Virus record (IMG/VR): IMGVR_UViG_3300025736_000117
Span: 1 to 30,383 of that record
Direction: 5' to 3' (one strand)
Origin: a virus
DNA length: 30,383 nucleotides
Shown here: in pieces, positions 5,632 through 29,889 of the stretch
How positions within the stretch are numbered: the stretch's first letter is position 1
Layout: each line of letters starts with the position of its first letter
Made by a program: the position numbers and the translations under genes
The notes under the pieces: model-generated
The model's input: only the letters and a program-made list of their open reading frames with translations
The model's database searches: none
What the model was told of the DNA's origin: nothing

Positions 5632-6700
5632 TGTTAATTGCCAACTGATAAGCCTTCTTTATGTCTCGTGCATATTTCCTCATACCATACTCTTTAACAG
5701 CTTTTTCTCTAGCCGCTATTGACATTTTGTTTCTTAAGGAATCGTCGTCAAGTTTAATGAGTGCCTTAGCCGCTTCAGGATATCCTTTGAAGTTCACCTT
5801 AAAGCCACATGACTCATCTACGAAGTCAGCCTGTCCGCCGTAATTATAAGTAATAACTGGTAGTCCAGAGGCTAACGCCTGTGGTGTAGTTAAACCTATC
5901 TGTTCAACAAACTTAAAGTCAGAGTTGGGCAGGGTAATGAATACGTCACCGAGGTTAAAGATCTTGTGTACCTCAGGTTGAGGAACTGCATCTATGAAGA
6001 ATACCTTGTCGGTTAATCCTTCCTTAGCTATCCACTTCTGTAATATCTTCTTGTCCCAGGGTTTGGTGGGGTGTACTCCACCTACATACACGAGCACCCA
6101 GTCCTTTAAGTTAGCTCTCTTGAACGTGTGAAATATTTCAAAGATACCCTTTTGTTCTTGAACCCTACCAACAAAAAGTAAAACCTTCTTATCCTTGAAG
6201 CGAGTCTTTTCTCTTGGTTTAAACCTGTCAGTATCACAACCACCGTGCAACAAGGATATTTTGTCTTTATCTATACCCTCTTGAGTAAGACAATCATAAA
6301 CCGATTGGCTTCTGGCAACAAATGATTTAACTTTCTCTTTCGCCAAGGTTAAACACTCACTTGCCCAATCCTGTTTGCCCCAGAGAAAACCGTAAGTGGG
6401 AATGTTCCAAGCAATCTCTGGCACAGAGTTGTTGAAATGTTCCATAATTATTTTCTGAACTGGACCATAAAATTCATAAATACTTATAACATCATACTCT
6501 TTCAAACTATTTAACAAGGTGGCCTCGCTTCGATAAACGACTTCATTAAGATTGTTGTTAGATATGAATGCTCTGCTCTGAGAAGTGTCTGTTGGTTCTG
6601 AGCCCTTGGTGAACACATCAATATCCATCCCTGCCTCTTTGGCGTATTTGAAGTGTTCAAGCAAGTCGTTGCGTAGAACAGTTAATAAGGCTACCTTCAT
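5624..6700 (-). CDS. GT4-family glycosyltransferase (GT-B fold)
   Basis: 358 residues, about the usual length for GT4. The N-terminal acceptor domain is followed by SLLHGGCDTDRFKP and KKVLLFVGRVQEQKGIFEIF, the typical start of the C-terminal donor domain. LTTPQALASGLPVITYNYGG then stands where GT4 enzymes have the E-x7-E donor loop, here with Gln (TPQA) at the second acidic position. It is retaining in the known family and uses nucleotide-activated sugars. The start overlaps the methyltransferase stop (ATGA). This is one of the most canonical enzymes in the block. Confidence 0.93.
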   Translation of the reverse strand: MKVALLTVLRNDLLEHFKYAKEAGMDIDVFTKGSEPTDTSQSRAFISNNNLNEVVYRSEATLLNSLKEYDVISIYEFYGPVQKIIMEHFNNSVPEIAWNIPTYGFLWGKQDWASECLTLAKEKVKSFVARSQSVYDCLTQEGIDKDKISLLHGGCDTDRFKPREKTRFKDKKVLLFVGRVQEQKGIFEIFHTFKRANLKDWVLVYVGGVHPTKPWDKKILQKWIAKEGLTDKVFFIDAVPQPEVHKIFNLGDVFITLPNSDFKFVEQIGLTTPQALASGLPVITYNYGGQADFVDESCGFKVNFKGYPEAAKALIKLDDDSLRNKMSIAAREKAVKEYGMRKYARDIKKAYQLAINNE

Positions 6701-7311
6701 TTTTGGCTAATAGCTAAATAGTATTCTCCAGTAGATTCAACTCCGTTTCTCGTATTGGTGTTTATTATCTTACTTATGGTTACTTTTCCCTTGAATAGTT
6801 TCCCTAACTTCTTTTTGTCAAACCAATGCTCATGTTCGCTATCCATTTCCGCTATGAACTTCTTATACTTCTTACTGTGGTCTGCTGGAACGAGTACGAT
6901 TAAGTATCCTCCTGGCTTACAAACCCTGTAAGCGTTGTTCATTAACCCCTTTGTGTCTACAACGTGTTCAACGATCTCACTCATAACCACATAGTCAAAG
7001 TAGTTCGATAGTATTGGGTGAGGTATCTCTGGTAAAGTTGAAACGAATCCATCAATCCCCCAGAACTCCTTCAGTTGCATGATGGCTGAGGTAGATATGT
7101 CTAACCCCACAAGCTCCATGTCTTTCTTCTCATTCTTTATCCTCTCCAGTAACCAGCCGTTCCCACAGCCTAAGTCAATTAGTTTTGAGCCGTCTCTAAT
7201 AAAGTCAATCACAGCATCAAATAACTGAGGGTACTTCCTCCACGTATCTTTGCCCTCCTCTAACCATTTAGTGTTCCAGTGTCCTTGATTGTTTATGTTT
7301 TTAGTCCTCAT
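6697..7311 (-). CDS. Class I SAM-dependent methyltransferase
   Basis: 204 residues. KLIDLGCGNGWLLERI is a canonical SAM-binding motif I, followed by LVGLDISTSAI (acidic ribose-binding residue), YVVMSEIVEHV and CKPGGYLIVLVP, the order seen in Methyltransf_11/23 proteins. Substrate cannot be read from sequence; lying between two glycosyltransferases with four-base overlaps at both ends, it probably methylates a sugar or lipid-linked or protein-linked glycan. Soluble, with no membrane segments. Confidence 0.9.
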   Translation of the reverse strand: MRTKNINNQGHWNTKWLEEGKDTWRKYPQLFDAVIDFIRDGSKLIDLGCGNGWLLERIKNEKKDMELVGLDISTSAIMQLKEFWGIDGFVSTLPEIPHPILSNYFDYVVMSEIVEHVVDTKGLMNNAYRVCKPGGYLIVLVPADHSKKYKKFIAEMDSEHEHWFDKKKLGKLFKGKVTISKIINTNTRNGVESTGEYYLAISQK

Positions 7312-8126
7312 AATTCTATTTCTCTATCCCCTTCCATCTCACCCCAGGTTATACCTGTGTTAGCGTAAGGAGTATTGTTATTAGCTTTCTTAATCATGTC
7401 CCATTGTGCTCTCCTAGCCTCACCATCGTAAAGGTGTGCCTCCATTGTTCCATGTCTGGCGTGGTGGTGATGAACACAAGGAACCCAACTCACCTCGTGG
7501 GGTTTTAATCCATAGTCTATAAATCTCTTTCTTAGACTTAACATCCAGTAGCCATAATCTCTCCATCTCTCGTCAAATCCTTTTAGCTTCAAGATGGTCT
7601 CTCTTGGGAGGGAATAGAAGATGGTCTCGTTTTCAGCCTTCTCCTTAGTGGCGATTGTTGTAGGTTTGGCTATTGACCATAGTAGTTTAGGGTTACTTCT
7701 CCAATCAACTGACTCAATAGGATTGTTCTCTAGTGTTCCTTCAGTTAGATATGGTAGAACAGTGCAGAATATGTCCTTCTCCCTAGTGTGGGGTCTGTAC
7801 AGAGCCTCTATCGCATCAAAGGAAGTCAACCTATCCTCCATTGTAGCTCCTATGATATCTCCTTTTGCCTGTTTGAATCCTATGTTCCATGCGTGTACAG
7901 GGCATTTCCAGTTCACATCACCCTCATAAACAAAGTATCTCAGGTTTAGTTTGGGATATAATTTTTTACACTCCTTAGCCACTGCGATACCCTCAGGGTC
8001 ATTACCGCCATCTAAGACAATCACTTCATAGTCCTCTTTAGGAAAGGTTTGATTCGCCCAGATATGTAAGGTCTTTTTTAGTATCTTCGGTTGTTTGAAG
8101 TATGAGAGTAGTTGTGTATATTTCAT
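7308..8126 (-). CDS. GT2-family glycosyltransferase
   Basis: 272 residues. TLHIWANQTFPKEDYEVIVLDGGNDP is the typical GT2 beginning, followed by AWNIGFKQAKGDIIGATMEDRL, where MED occupies the metal-binding position. A later segment, GFDERWRDYGYWMLSLRKRF, fits the GGFDE...ED acceptor-binding region. The N-terminus (MKYTQLLSYFKQP) lacks the usual VSVIIPTYN strand, so the first strand is divergent. It overlaps both neighbouring methyltransferase genes by four bases, making a methyltransferase-GT2-methyltransferase unit. Confidence 0.87.
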   Translation of the reverse strand: MKYTQLLSYFKQPKILKKTLHIWANQTFPKEDYEVIVLDGGNDPEGIAVAKECKKLYPKLNLRYFVYEGDVNWKCPVHAWNIGFKQAKGDIIGATMEDRLTSFDAIEALYRPHTREKDIFCTVLPYLTEGTLENNPIESVDWRSNPKLLWSIAKPTTIATKEKAENETIFYSLPRETILKLKGFDERWRDYGYWMLSLRKRFIDYGLKPHEVSWVPCVHHHHARHGTMEAHLYDGEARRAQWDMIKKANNNTPYANTGITWGEMEGDREIEL

Positions 8127-12084: not shown

Positions 12085-12911
12085 TCGTCAATTCCCTTCG
12101 AAAGTTGAGCAGCGTAATAATGTTGGTCATACAATGGACCATTTAGAACCTCTAGAAGTTTTGGATTGTCTGGCTCAACCTCAACAGGTATGCCGCATGC
12201 CCTAGCTTCTAGAACCGTTCTTTCTCCGCCACCGGTAATATCACAGGGAACATAAACTCTTTTTGAACAGTTGTATATTTCCCTGAGTCTTGTTGGATAA
12301 GTCATATCTGAAATTGCAACACTGTCTGCAATTAGGTCAGCAACGATATCAAAAGACTCTTTCCAGTTATTTTTTTGAATTTGTCCTATAACAAGTTTTG
12401 TTCCCTTTTTCTTTTTTATAAGATGGAACCTCTTCCATACTGCAAAAGCACCCACAGATAACCAATCCCAGATTAATGGTGCTTCCAGGTTCGGATTAAA
12501 AATGTTTGTGTTTGTTCCAAATGCGTGAACAATATTAAGGTTCCCTTCAATTTGTGGTTTATACCATTCTGTTTCATAAAACAAAACATCATATTTACCA
12601 TCACCTTCTGGTGGAAAGGCATTGCCTCCAATACACAATCCTATCTTTGCCTTTGTGTTATCGTGAAGAGCCTGTAGTAATTTGTCAACAGGACTACCAA
12701 AAGCGCCCCATCCAAGGAAAAGATCAACACTTTCCAAAGCCTTTTTCGATCCATATTTTTCTCTGAAAGCAGATCTTTCTTCTATCATATAAATATTGAC
12801 CATTTCAATATCATATTTTTTTCGAAGAATATTCAGTGCCTCCCACAGTCCGTCTCTCCAAATTTCTGGAAAAGAGTGGTCATATATAAAAACAATTTTT
12901 GCCTTTTTCAC
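12072..12911 (-). CDS. GT-B fold glycosyltransferase-like protein
   Basis: 279 residues starting with GTG, which overlaps the TAG of the upstream gene (TAGTG). The N-terminal half has a Rossmann-like strand (AKIVFIYDHSFPEIW) and DLFLGWGAFGSP; the C-terminal half has KLVIGQIQKNNWKESFDIV and CDITGGGERTVLEARACGIPVEVE, the GT4 donor loop with E in GER and E in LEA. It is shorter than typical GT4 enzymes, so the acceptor domain is reduced. Soluble. Sugar specificity unknown. Confidence 0.78.
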   Translation of the reverse strand: MKKAKIVFIYDHSFPEIWRDGLWEALNILRKKYDIEMVNIYMIEERSAFREKYGSKKALESVDLFLGWGAFGSPVDKLLQALHDNTKAKIGLCIGGNAFPPEGDGKYDVLFYETEWYKPQIEGNLNIVHAFGTNTNIFNPNLEAPLIWDWLSVGAFAVWKRFHLIKKKKGTKLVIGQIQKNNWKESFDIVADLIADSVAISDMTYPTRLREIYNCSKRVYVPCDITGGGERTVLEARACGIPVEVEPDNPKLLEVLNGPLYDQHYYAAQLSKGIDECLN

Positions 12912-13297
12912 TATTTACCATCCTTCTTTTTGGCTAGATTTTCTTTTCTCTTTTTACGAGCCTTTTTAAGAGCCTCAACTCTTTTGGCCTTTATTTCTAG
13001 AGCCCTTTTTTCTTTCTCGTCTGGTGTAAGTTCGTCAGTCTTTTTTTGTATAGGTTTCTTTAAGTGTTCTGTAACATGTTTTACAAAAGAAGATAGTCCG
13101 TCTTTTTTCTGAAAACAAACGGGACAAACAAAATTCTGTCCAGGCATTTCCAACTCATTTCCGTCCATGTCTACTAAAACAGCCATGCCACTTTTAACCA
13201 GCAAATCTGGGTTAGTAACCTCTACAGTGTCACCGATTTGTAATCCGGGATTCTCAGAGGGGGTCCACAGTTCTGAAGTTTTTTTAATTAAAGTCAT
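12911..13297 (-). CDS. C2H2-like zinc-finger small protein
   Basis: 128 residues. The first half has a short beta-type domain (LQIGDTVEVTNPDLLVKSG). The middle contains CPVC followed by FVKHVTEH, a C2H2-type zinc finger. The C-terminus is a highly basic coiled or disordered tail (KAKRVEALKKARKKRKENLAKKK). The ATG is preceded by GGAGGTGA at seven-base spacing, one of the best ribosome binding sites in the window, suggesting strong expression. It sits at the start of the glycosyltransferase block but could be a small structural or nucleic-acid binding protein. Function unknown. Confidence 0.72.
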   Translation of the reverse strand: MTLIKKTSELWTPSENPGLQIGDTVEVTNPDLLVKSGMAVLVDMDGNELEMPGQNFVCPVCFQKKDGLSSFVKHVTEHLKKPIQKKTDELTPDEKEKRALEIKAKRVEALKKARKKRKENLAKKKDGK

Positions 13298-18393: not shown

Positions 18394-18433
18394 GTTATTT
18401 TATGTTTTCACCCCCTCCCTTATAATGTTTTGT

Positions 18434-18471
18434 CCATATCTCTTTTAATACCCACTAGGGTAGAGATATGG
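18434..18471 (-). promoter_or_regulatory. Long hairpin in capsid gene leader
   Basis: CCATATCTC and GAGATATGG pair as nine base pairs, and TACCC and GGGTA pair inside as five more above a four-base loop, with a six-base bulge on one side. The structure lies between the scaffold stop and the capsid ribosome binding site. It lacks a following U-run, so an mRNA stability or processing role is more likely than termination. Confidence 0.6.
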
Positions 18472-18478
18472 ATCCACA

Positions 18479-19429
18479 CTATGAGGTTGTTTTTGTCGGT
18501 TCTCCAACGTGGTCAGTGTTTGCAAGTCTCCTTGCAATTGCTTCTAGGTTTCCCTCTCGGGTTTTCCTAACAAGCATTTCTCTGTCCTCTGTTGGTACAG
18601 ACTGTGGTCGAGCCGCGGGCTGTTGTCCTGCCGTATCGGCAGCAGCCTGTTCCTTTATGTCTTGAGCAGCATCAACTGGTTCCGGTTGCTTATCTGCAAC
18701 TGGTTCAACTGGTGTAGCTTGACCTTTAGTAGGTTCGGTCATGTCTGTATTGACATTAGATGATTGCGTCTTTACGTAGCTGGCTGCTTCTTTGAAATCC
18801 AACGCTCTTCCACTATAGTCATTAGGACTCATCATGGAATCAAGTAAAACAGCTCTAACCTGTCTACTAAATTCTTTATCAAAACTTTCTCCTCTCGGAT
18901 TAAGTTCTGGGAATGTAGTAAAGGTTTCCCTGTTCTGTCTATCAATCTCTCGGGCTTCTGATGTTTTAATATAGTCCTGTACTGCCTTTTGGGCATTAGT
19001 GGCTTGTTTATTTAAATTTGAAATTTTAGCTTTAAGCTTAACTTCATTAATAAACTTGTCACCAGTTACTGGGTCTACTTCAACGAAATCCTCAGGATTA
19101 ACTTTCTCTTGAGCCTGTTGTTGTACTGGCTGTTGGTTTAAAGAACTGGCTTCACGGTTTGCTTCTTCTCTTCTCCTCTGAGAACCAATTAGGGCTTTAT
19201 TAGCCTCCATTAATTCTCTATTAGAATCGAGTAGTTTATCAAACTGTTCTGTCGTTCTTTTGTTTTCTGTATTTATAGCTGGCTTACTAGGTTCTGTCTT
19301 TGCTTTTGTAGCTGGTACTGTTGGTTTCGCTGGTGTAGCTGGAACCACAGGGGCTTTAGTCGCTGTAACAGGGTTAGTAGCTGGCTTTTTAGAAGCGTCC
19401 TTTACGGTCGCTTTATCTGTGTTTGCCAA
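18479..19429 (-). CDS. Scaffolding protein candidate
   Basis: 316 residues. The N-terminus is a low-complexity Ala/Pro/Thr/Lys segment (ATKAPVVPATPAKPTVPATK), followed by a long charged helical region (about 60-160) with coiled-coil character, and another disordered Pro/Gln region (about 230-280). This composition, and its place between portal and major capsid genes, is typical of phage scaffolding proteins, which line the procapsid and exit before packaging. The start is TTG at 19429, chosen because a perfect GGAGGTGA lies seven bases upstream and no ATG fits. Sequence similarity alone would not identify it. Confidence 0.75.
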   Translation of the reverse strand: MANTDKATVKDASKKPATNPVTATKAPVVPATPAKPTVPATKAKTEPSKPAINTENKRTTEQFDKLLDSNRELMEANKALIGSQRRREEANREASSLNQQPVQQQAQEKVNPEDFVEVDPVTGDKFINEVKLKAKISNLNKQATNAQKAVQDYIKTSEAREIDRQNRETFTTFPELNPRGESFDKEFSRQVRAVLLDSMMSPNDYSGRALDFKEAASYVKTQSSNVNTDMTEPTKGQATPVEPVADKQPEPVDAAQDIKEQAAADTAGQQPAARPQSVPTEDREMLVRKTREGNLEAIARRLANTDHVGEPTKTTS

Positions 19430-25464: not shown

Positions 25465-25558
25465 AAAACCCATAAAGCCTATAACGCGTAAGGAAAATGA
25501 GAATTTCGTTTCTAAAACAATTTGCAACTCAACATCCTCAAAACCCATAGTAGGCTTT
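25465..25558. repeat. Inverted repeat pair in gap before ribbon-helix-helix gene
   Basis: AAAGCCTA at 25474-25481 and TAGGCTTT at 25551-25558 pair perfectly over 69 intervening bases. The ten-base string AAAACCCATA also occurs twice directly, at 25465-25474 and 25540-25549. On the minus strand the stem is followed by ATGGGTTTTTTG. No gene lies here (25424-25577). It could be an unusual terminator, a folded RNA or a pair of protein sites. Confidence 0.4.
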
Positions 25559-25577
25559 ACAAGTTCTTAATTTAAAG

Positions 25578-26950: not shown

Positions 26951-27934
26951 TTAAGTCTTGTTTCGACGGTCCATTTCCTCACCAGCACCCAAGATGCTGT
27001 GCTCATATACAACCTCATTCCTATCTGGCCTCAAGATTACGCTTGCCCCATACATTTCTTCTGGTTGTTGCACTACCCATCCATTTTTTCTACTATAGTC
27101 ATCTTGTGACTTATAAGGACCTAGTGCTATGTAATGAACGTTGTGTCTTTTGTTACCGAAGGCTTTAACAGTGTCTCTACTGTACCCCTTCTTATGGTTG
27201 TGGGCCGACACTACAATATCACTTCCAAAAGCCCCTCCATGCCTATTAGCGGCCCTCATTTGGGGGTGTGTGTTGTTGTAGATGGAGCTTCCTGGCAACT
27301 GGTGGGCTAAAGTAATGTGATATTCCTGTTCTCCGACATAAAGTGTTAAATAGCTCATTCCTTGTAAGTAGTGCGCACCGTAAGTCTCTGCAAAGTCTGC
27401 ATATGGGTTGATTCCCATCTTCTTTGGCCATAAGTCGTGATCTCCTCCAAGTGCAGCCAATAATCGATTATCGCTAGAAACGTGCTTAAACAATGCCTTC
27501 ATGTACTTAATTTGTTCCGGTGTCTGCTCCATTTCCTCCATTTGTGCACTGTTAAAGAAGAATCCGTCAATTAAATCGCCCATAAAAATAATGTACGAGT
27601 TTGGAGTGCCCATAATTACATCAATTTCCTGTTCTATTCTCTCATAGTCGGTAAATCCTGAACCTGCGTGCAAATCGGGTATAAAGTTTATGCAATTAAC
27701 CGTGTCTGGCAACCTTATCTCCACATGGTTGGTTGGCACTTCAAAGTTTTCCTTGAACTGCTCAGCTCTCTGTCTAAATCTTGGTGAATGGTAATCCTTA
27801 AACCCTCGCTCTATTGGAAGTGGTGTAATAATCTCTGGTTCTACAATATCTCCACGCAAAGCGTACTCTTTTCTAATTTCTTTTGTTGAGGAAAAATCCT
27901 CTTCACTTGGTCCTCGATATAATCCTCTTTCCAT
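26951..27934 (-). CDS. Calcineurin-like metallophosphoesterase
   Basis: 327 residues. The metal-binding motifs appear in order: PDLHAG (D87, H89), MGDLIDG (D120, D123), GGDHDLW (GDHD in place of the usual GNHD), LAHQLPG, and SAHNHKKGY (H-x-H). The N-terminal 75 residues are an extension without recognisable domain. Family members are di-metal phosphodiesterases or phosphatases; phage examples may act on nucleic acids or nucleotides. The Asn-to-Asp change in motif III removes a metal ligand usually provided by Asn but Asp can also coordinate. A TTGATT-17-TACCAT promoter lies close to the ATG. Confidence 0.88.
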   Translation of the reverse strand: MERGLYRGPSEEDFSSTKEIRKEYALRGDIVEPEIITPLPIERGFKDYHSPRFRQRAEQFKENFEVPTNHVEIRLPDTVNCINFIPDLHAGSGFTDYERIEQEIDVIMGTPNSYIIFMGDLIDGFFFNSAQMEEMEQTPEQIKYMKALFKHVSSDNRLLAALGGDHDLWPKKMGINPYADFAETYGAHYLQGMSYLTLYVGEQEYHITLAHQLPGSSIYNNTHPQMRAANRHGGAFGSDIVVSAHNHKKGYSRDTVKAFGNKRHNVHYIALGPYKSQDDYSRKNGWVVQQPEEMYGASVILRPDRNEVVYEHSILGAGEEMDRRNKT

Positions 27935-28328: not shown

Positions 28329-28667
28329 TTACTTTTTTGCACATGCAGGGCATGCCCAGTCTTCCCATTTTCCAGTGTGCAACTCTTCGTAGTGACAATG
28401 CGAACATCCAATTTGCGTAATATCTTCTTTCCCTGGACGGGTCTGCCCATGGGGTTTTAAATACCAAATGCCATCTGGCAAATTACTTTCTTTTGATAAA
28501 ATCAACGTGTCCTTATATTGTGGCCACTTTGTGAAAAATGGATCCATACACTTTCTGTGGAAAACATATTCAGCATTTTTAAGCCATGCATAGACGGCAT
28601 CTTCTTTTGTTACCCCCTCGGAGCAGTAAAAACATTTTCTATCGATTGTTTTTTTCATTTCTTGCAT
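28329..28667 (-). CDS. Zinc-binding protein with two Cys clusters
   Basis: 112 residues. CFYC and HRKC near the N-terminus, CSHCHYEELH and CPAC near the C-terminus, suggest two zinc sites; the last part resembles a zinc ribbon. The middle is WPQYKDTLILSKESNLPDGIWYLKPHGQ. The ATG at 28667 follows five bases after the U-run of the structured RNA described at 28672-28791. If that RNA is a leader, this gene is its target. Function unknown. Confidence 0.66.
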   Translation of the reverse strand: MQEMKKTIDRKCFYCSEGVTKEDAVYAWLKNAEYVFHRKCMDPFFTKWPQYKDTLILSKESNLPDGIWYLKPHGQTRPGKEDITQIGCSHCHYEELHTGKWEDWACPACAKK

Positions 28668-28671
28668 AGGT

Positions 28672-28791
28672 TAAAAAAAATAAAAGAGGGGTGCCTTGAT
28701 TATCAGCAGTCTTACGGGTTTTTCGAGGGTACTGATTTCAAGACGGTACTGTTACCCTTTATTCCCTTTGACCCCTCTCTTTTAATTCTCT
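28672..28791 (-). ncRNA. Candidate structured RNA with own promoter and U-run
   Basis: The segment is closed by AAAAGAGAGGGG (28783-28772) paired with CCCCUCUUUU (28691-28682), ten pairs with a two-base bulge, followed by UAUUUUUUUU-like sequence. Inside, CUUGA-A-AUCAG (28742-28732) pairs with CUGAU-AA-UCAAG (28706-28695), ten pairs. A small hairpin GGUA-ACAG-UACC lies at 28756-28745. Two CCC runs in the 25-base apical loop could pair with two GGG runs upstream. A TTGACA-17-TAAAAC promoter starts it. It may be a free small RNA or a regulatory leader of the next gene. I recognise no known RNA class. Confidence 0.6.
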
Positions 28792-28797
28792 TCTTAT

Positions 28798-28826
28798 GTT
28801 TTACCACACACGGCAATGTTTGTCAA
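28798..28826 (-). promoter_or_regulatory. Promoter of the structured RNA
   Basis: TTGACA (28821-28826) and TAAAAC (28798-28803) are separated by 17 bases. The expected transcription start, about 28791, is eight bases before the closing stem of the RNA. It lies right after the membrane-protein stop codon. Confidence 0.6.
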
Positions 28827-28829
28827 ATT

Positions 28830-29012
28830 CTACTTGATAGCAGTACAAAAAAAGCAAAATAATCCAAATACTACCAGGATTGGGAAAAATACAGATATAA
28901 ATACCGCAAGCAGGCAAATAATAGAAAGTAAAAAGGAAACAACTAGGGCAATTGGAGATAATATGATATTAAGAAGCTTTAAAGGGAATGGTTTGTTTTC
29001 CATCTTTGCCAT
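28830..29012 (-). CDS. Small membrane protein
   Basis: 60 residues, mostly hydrophobic: after a polar start (MAKMENKPFPLK) come LLNIILSPIALVVSFLLSII and LAVFISVFFPILVVFGLFCFF, enough for two membrane helices with a very short turn. A holin or inner-membrane modifier is possible, but phage early membrane peptides are too diverse to name. No good ribosome binding site. Confidence 0.58.
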   Translation of the reverse strand: MAKMENKPFPLKLLNIILSPIALVVSFLLSIICLLAVFISVFFPILVVFGLFCFFCTAIK

Positions 29013-29635: not shown

Positions 29636-29639
29636 ATCG

Positions 29640-29889
29640 TCTATCTTTCGTCTATCGTATCATTTTATAATTTTACTGTCACCTTGTCATTGTATAGAGG
29701 TAAAAAACTACTATATGGAGTGAAGTGTCCCAAAGTAGAGGACAGTTGGTATGATGGTTTACAGATAATGTACAAATTAGTACAGTAACTGTAAACCACT
29801 ATATTGAGTGACAGTGTGGTTTATAGATACTATACAAATCTGTTAAGTTGCTGTAAACCACTTATATACAGCTATCACACCATGGTGTG
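29640..29889. repeat. Hairpin-rich non-coding region
   Basis: A 250-base gap with no gene. GGTTTACAG (29756-29764) and CTGTAAACC (29789-29797) enclose a second stem TGTAC/GTACA. A related copy, GGTTTATAG (29818-29826) with CTGTAAACC (29851-29859), follows about 62 bases later. The spacers after each share ACCACT-TATA-like text. CACACCATGGTGTG (29876-29889) is a perfect 14-base palindrome, and TGTCC/GGACA (29726-29744) a smaller hairpin. No U-runs follow. Origin, regulator binding array or structured RNA are all possible. Confidence 0.6.

Follow-up and report, generated by a model that had tools for sequence, protein, structure and literature searches.

The packaging RNA of phage phi29 is a phage-encoded RNA of about 120 nt, which has paired ends and a three-way junction. 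The OOP RNA of phage lambda is a short phage transcript ending at an intrinsic terminator. OOP and sar are phage small RNAs with their own promoters (reviewed in PMC12197685). In type III toxin-antitoxin loci, a promoter, an RNA, an intrinsic terminator and an ORF follow one another (PMC5086642). Attenuation leaders and riboswitches are structured RNAs that stand immediately in front of a gene and have a terminator at their end.

RNA-A, a predicted RNA of an uncultured phage, resembles each of these systems in part. It shares size, paired ends, the three-way junction and phage origin with the phi29 packaging RNA, but has no match in Rfam and no loop-loop complementarity by eye. Like OOP, it is predicted to be a short phage transcript with its own promoter. 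In contrast, the genes of OOP and sar lie opposite their targets, on the antisense strand, whereas RNA-A shares its strand with the surrounding genes and overlaps no target; no sequence relation to either was seen. The gene order is that of type III loci, but unlike the ToxI, CptI and TenpI RNAs, RNA-A contains no tandem repeats and has no ToxN/AbiQ-type endoribonuclease match downstream. RNA-A shares its structured nature, its terminator and its position before a gene with attenuation leaders and riboswitches; in contrast to them, its terminator stem surrounds the entire RNA, a search for an alternative fold found none and Rfam gave no match. RNA-A is a real, structured element and probably a small-RNA gene, an orphan of a known kind. 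By itself, it is one further orphan candidate.

Locus and gene neighbourhood

The window is the stretch of DNA analysed here, positions 1 to 30,383 of IMG/VR record IMGVR_UViG_3300025736_000117 (30383 bases). It encodes an SU10-type major capsid protein, a portal and a terminase, and nearly all of its genes are on the minus strand. RNA-A occupies a 162-base gap between a membrane-type gene and a zinc-protein gene, and a phosphoesterase gene lies downstream. The features of the locus are as follows.

28830 to 29012, minus strand: upstream gene, 60-aa membrane-type protein (ORF)
28821 to 28826, minus strand: -35 element TTGACA, perfect (from the sequence)
28798 to 28803, minus strand: -10 element TAAAAC, weak, 4/6 with the final T missing (from the sequence)
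28673 to 28791, minus strand: RNA-A, predicted transcript of ~119 nt, with its start placed from the promoter and its end at the U-run
28771 to 28781, minus strand: 5' arm of P1, AAGAGAGGGGU (pair probabilities 0.70-0.96; inverted repeat)
28757 to 28770, minus strand: linker CAAAGGGAAUAAAG between P1 and P2, 14 nt, purine-rich, single-stranded in the MFE and centroid structures
28745 to 28756, minus strand: P2, small hairpin GGUA-ACAG-UACC, 4 bp (pair probabilities 0.82-0.97)
28693 to 28744, minus strand: P3, long stem of 7+7 bp plus 4 weaker apical pairs (14 main pairs at 0.90-1.0)
28682 to 28692, minus strand: 3' arm of P1, ACCCCUCUUUU, terminator stem (pair probabilities, terminator scan, inverted repeat)
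28673 to 28680, minus strand: U8 run, terminator tail, preceded by A (from the sequence; terminator-type scan score 14.5)
28329 to 28667, minus strand: zinc-protein gene, 112 aa, directly downstream of RNA-A (ORF)
26951 to 27934: phosphoesterase gene, downstream of RNA-A

As the preliminary description of this DNA had stated, the stretch from the promoter to the U-run contains no gene, and the start codon of the zinc-protein gene lies 5 nt past the U-run. The zinc protein has two Cys/His zinc-type motifs and a possible alternative ATG at 28658. It gave no significant family in Pfam, PHROG, PADLOC or NCBIfam, and neighbour-protein scans found it in the same virus only. No Shine-Dalgarno sequence precedes its start (anti-SD pairing of only -1.5 to -1.9 kcal/mol), which is not specific because many genes of these phages have no strong one. 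The 60-aa upstream protein is possibly homologous to the protein encoded after a closed RNA in the related contig L003, to judge from an alignment of 33% identity over 51 aa (E 0.057). Relatives of the terminase and of the HAD gene provide context but contain no RNA-A, and their four genome matches, only 28-34% identical, do not indicate the host.

Putative promoter and terminator

The promoter had been called consensus-like. This holds for the perfect TTGACA and the 17-nt spacer, while the wording is somewhat generous for the -10 element, which matches at 4/6 positions and is preceded by TGG. The automatic consensus scan did not list this promoter. In the window's minus-strand gaps TTGACA is enriched, with 4 of 22 copies falling in 4% of the sequence (p 0.015). 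We infer that transcription begins near 28791 from this promoter and terminates at the U-run.

The run of eight U is present at 28680-28673. The 11-bp stem followed by A-U8 qualifies as a terminator on sequence grounds, with an unusually long loop of 78 nt. Elements of this type were scanned as a stem plus a U tail, with a loop of 9-200 nt and a score of at least 14, and 100 dinucleotide-shuffled windows served as the control. Two elements were found in the real window, versus a mean of 0.14 per shuffled window; at least one was found in 13/100 shuffled windows and two in 1/100. The outer stem P1 and the U-run read as a single intrinsic terminator, with the structured RNA as its putative loop.

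Fold of RNA-A

RNA-A (28673-28791) folds with -34.9 kcal/mol (z -3.35), and none of 200 dinucleotide shuffles was equally stable. The complementary strand folds far more weakly (z -1.03), and this asymmetry is expected of an RNA rather than of a DNA palindrome. Strong folding is not unique to RNA-A: in a coarse z-score survey of the minus strand over the whole window, several other gaps fold equally well or better.

The closed outer stem described earlier is P1, in which 28781-28771 pair with 28692-28682 to form 11 bp (AAGAGAGGGGU/ACCCCUCUUUU) around 78 nt, including 18 well-determined internal pairs. The small hairpin, P2, was likewise found as described. The second stem, P3, adjoins P1 and P2 and is longer than the ten pairs claimed for it, since it has 14 bp in two 7-bp halves with a small internal loop between them, plus the four apical pairs. 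Pair probabilities are at least 0.9 across most of P1 and P3. P1 dominates the ensemble, with core pairs at 0.93-0.96, and no competing antiterminator fold was found. A pseudoknot had also been proposed from matching G and C triplets; its support is limited to at most three or four complementary bases (GGGU/ACCC, at most 4 bp). An alternative GGGUA/UACCC pairing was rejected, having probability 0 in the ensemble.

Search for relatives of RNA-A

The statement that RNA-A fits no RNA family agrees with the Rfam search, in which the covariance models matched nowhere in the window at the gathering threshold; relaxing the cut-off to E 10 added only weak, unrelated matches, none of them on the RNA strand over RNA-A. 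In the collections searched, RNA-A recurs only as an identical copy, in one further contig of this virus (L002/L099). Consistently, blastn against phage and plasmid records and the neighbour-protein scans found RNA-A in the same virus only. DNA patterns for the 5' part and P3 did so too, and the other 18 pattern matches fail the RNA model there. The covariance model R1, run over ~1 Mb of relatives, gave weak matches (E 0.01-2) that bypass most of the structure. RNA-A was not found by sequence in L003/L004 and L005, whose phosphoesterase is 81-85% identical; the L005 contig stops short of the expected place. With identical copies only, the lack of covariation in RNA-A is counted neither for nor against the RNA.

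Analogous elements in related phages

Closed RNAs of similar anatomy but unrelated sequence were also found elsewhere in the window and in relatives. None of those searched has an Rfam match, and, the copies of RNA-B aside, no two match one another by sequence.

25467 to 25565 of the window, minus strand: RNA-B, second terminator-closed RNA, 15-bp stem, 69-nt loop and U tail, homologous in L003/L004/L005, upstream of a ribbon-helix-helix gene
4650 to 4762 of L005 and 10786 to 10895 of L003: copies of RNA-B, likewise upstream of a ribbon-helix-helix gene
7433 to 7522 of L003 (region 7390-7540): closed RNA with TTGACA-N17-TATAAT, 9-bp stem and U7 (z -3.25)
6455 to 6730 of L100 (region 6415-6735): closed RNA (z -6.0 over 321 nt)
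5948 to 6051 of L110: first element, a three-way junction closed by 21 bp, then U7

For RNA-B, compensatory change between relatives was observed. In its closing stem, 4 of 15 pairs are changed on both sides among the window, L003 and L005, which was reached by 11/500 shuffles, and an ACGCG motif is conserved. The fold has z -4.3 in the window and -6.9 in L005, and the L005 copy has no Rfam match. This copy is preceded by a promoter of its own, TTGACA-N17-TAATAT, and past its terminator a distinct, conserved promoter serves the following gene. Read from these promoters, RNA-B in L005 appears to be a free-standing unit, which shows that such units would be able to stand alone.

In the L003 RNA, a stem of CGAGGCGGA/UCCGCCUCG surrounds 72 nt, and the ATG of a membrane-protein gene follows 10 nt downstream. 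Its loop contains AAAGGAGGUGAU, 12 nt that are perfectly complementary to the 3' end of 16S rRNA. After AAAGGAGGUGAU, the start-codon spacing has only CUG-UAG, which would fit a ribosome decoy or a start-stop leader. The HAD genes of L100 and the window are 95% identical. Downstream of its HAD gene, L100 has a promoter (TTGACA-N17-TACTAT) and a closed RNA of ~280 nt; this RNA, again with no Rfam match, precedes an array of 12 tRNA genes. Two structured elements stand in succession at 5940-6150 of L110.

A survey of the gaps near the HAD gene, with long gaps considered to 400 bases, gave a mixed picture, and a structured RNA was not seen in every relative. A hot spot of structured RNAs near this gene is a suggestion. 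The recurrence in relatives is of greater interest than RNA-A alone, though it is based on few hand-picked cases. The candidate at 8678-8767 of L106 was rejected as a closed RNA, being inside a 37-aa ORF.

A probable small-RNA gene and its alternatives

The preliminary description had offered either a small RNA or a leader of the zinc-protein gene. The fold, the Rfam search and the analogues support a structured small RNA, and do not settle this choice. Our main reading, with a probability of about 0.5, is a phage-encoded small-RNA gene with its own promoter and terminator. The closing stem is also the terminator stem, and RNA-A is therefore best explained as a free small RNA. From the TTGACA promoter, polymerase would pass through a three-way-junction RNA made of P1, the hairpin P2 and the long hairpin P3. 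Pairing of the RNA ends would then cause the stop at the U-run, P1 serving as both closing stem and terminator stem. The product would be a compact RNA of ~119 nt with paired ends, in which the purine-rich linker and the apical loop of P3 are exposed. The zinc-protein gene would be transcribed by read-through, which RNA-A would limit. Against a small-RNA gene are the weak -10 element, the lack of any homologue of RNA-A and the leader-like position of the zinc-protein start codon; the L003 RNA, too, stands directly before a gene.

For its target and action, we infer that the exposed linker or apical loop base-pairs with a target in trans, and the leader of the phosphoesterase mRNA is one candidate. 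The 3' strand and loop of P3 agree with the reverse complement of this leader in 24 of 29 columns, just upstream of the start codon, and CUUAGCGGGUU belongs to the proposed antisense pairing. Among 46 gene starts this match ranked first or tied first in 2 of 3 scorings, with nominal significance only (p 0.02-0.16, depending on the scoring). Genome-wide duplex energies did not single out this leader, and the L003 RNA showed no notable pairing with its own phosphoesterase leader. The phosphoesterase leader is thus a weak lead, suggested by complementarity. The gene at 12911-13297 was rejected as a target, its match being a low-complexity one between the terminator tail and a Shine-Dalgarno sequence.

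It is possible, though somewhat unlikely, that RNA-A acts in cis, as a leader (attenuator) for the zinc-protein gene and the rest of its operon, in which the terminator stops transcription by default and a signal such as a protein, a metal or the ribosome opens P1 for read-through. The 5 nt between the U-run and the start codon cannot accommodate another promoter, and a Shine-Dalgarno sequence is absent, although a strong one is missing from many genes of these phages. The L003 RNA is similarly close to its gene, and its complement of 16S rRNA could couple it to ribosomes; the genes after the two RNAs, on the other hand, are unrelated. An attenuator is also at odds with the stability of P1 (core pairs 0.93-0.96) without a competing antiterminator, and with the lack of a riboswitch or leader family match in Rfam. 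A free unit is favoured over a leader because RNA-B in L005 precedes a separate promoter of the next gene.

We consider it unlikely that the gap is an ordinary operon boundary, where the terminator belongs to the upstream early genes, the loop is structured by chance, the promoter is fortuitous or weak and the RNA has no function. RNA-B of the window comes directly after a gene, for which it could serve as a terminator in the 3' UTR, the -10 element of RNA-A is weak, the z of -3.35 is notable yet matched by other gaps, and at least one stem of the same class arose in 13 of the 100 shuffled windows. Intrinsic terminators, however, normally have short loops, in contrast to the 78 nt with 18 well-determined internal pairs seen here; two such elements per window occurred in a single shuffle of 100, and the promoter followed by a closed RNA recurs in relatives. 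A type III toxin-antitoxin-like locus, with RNA-A as the antitoxin and the zinc protein as the toxin, is very improbable, since beyond the shared order of promoter, RNA, intrinsic terminator and ORF (PMC5086642), the RNA has no tandem repeats and the protein no toxin family match in Pfam, NCBIfam or PADLOC.

Beyond the small-RNA gene itself, we raise the doubtful idea that small RNAs turn over fast in the early region of this SU10-capsid phage lineage, a nursery in which RNAs unrelated in sequence follow one plan, a TTGACA promoter and then an RNA whose paired ends form its own terminator. The proposed members are RNA-A, RNA-B, the L003 RNA, L100 6455-6730 and L110 5948-6051. From one close relative to the next, one such RNA would take the place of another, a behaviour expected of RNAs for counter-defence or host takeover. 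Phage small RNAs have no sequence relatives and are for this reason under-catalogued. If genomes of the lineage repeatedly carry promoter-terminator closed RNAs in neighbouring positions, the double use of one stem for closure and termination would be a simple architectural signature, by which orphan phage RNAs could be found without covariation.

Other structured regions

Further structured regions were observed in the window and its relatives. In L106, a strong closed hairpin RNA (ACACAAAACCCAU/AUGGGUUUUGUGU) comes after a TTGACA-N17-TAAAAT promoter in the gap at 7800-7940 (z -6.3). The noncoding region 3000-3310 of L003, directly upstream of the HAD gene, folds with -102.6 kcal/mol over 320 nt and has no Rfam match. 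It comprises two structured units in series, each preceded by CAGAGAATTGA, and a 13-bp stem closes the second. In the window, the gap upstream of the HAD gene (29636-29889, minus strand) has two similar ~45-base copies of inverted repeats of the GTGGTTTACAG...CTGTAAACCAT type, and the fold has z -3 to -5. The lowest z in the minus-strand scan (-5.96) was found at 18394-18612 (minus strand), at and upstream of the start of the major capsid gene, where a long hairpin with arms ATCCATATCTCT / AGAGATATGGA precedes a strong Shine-Dalgarno sequence. Between the window and the L005 contig, this gap shows 88% identity.
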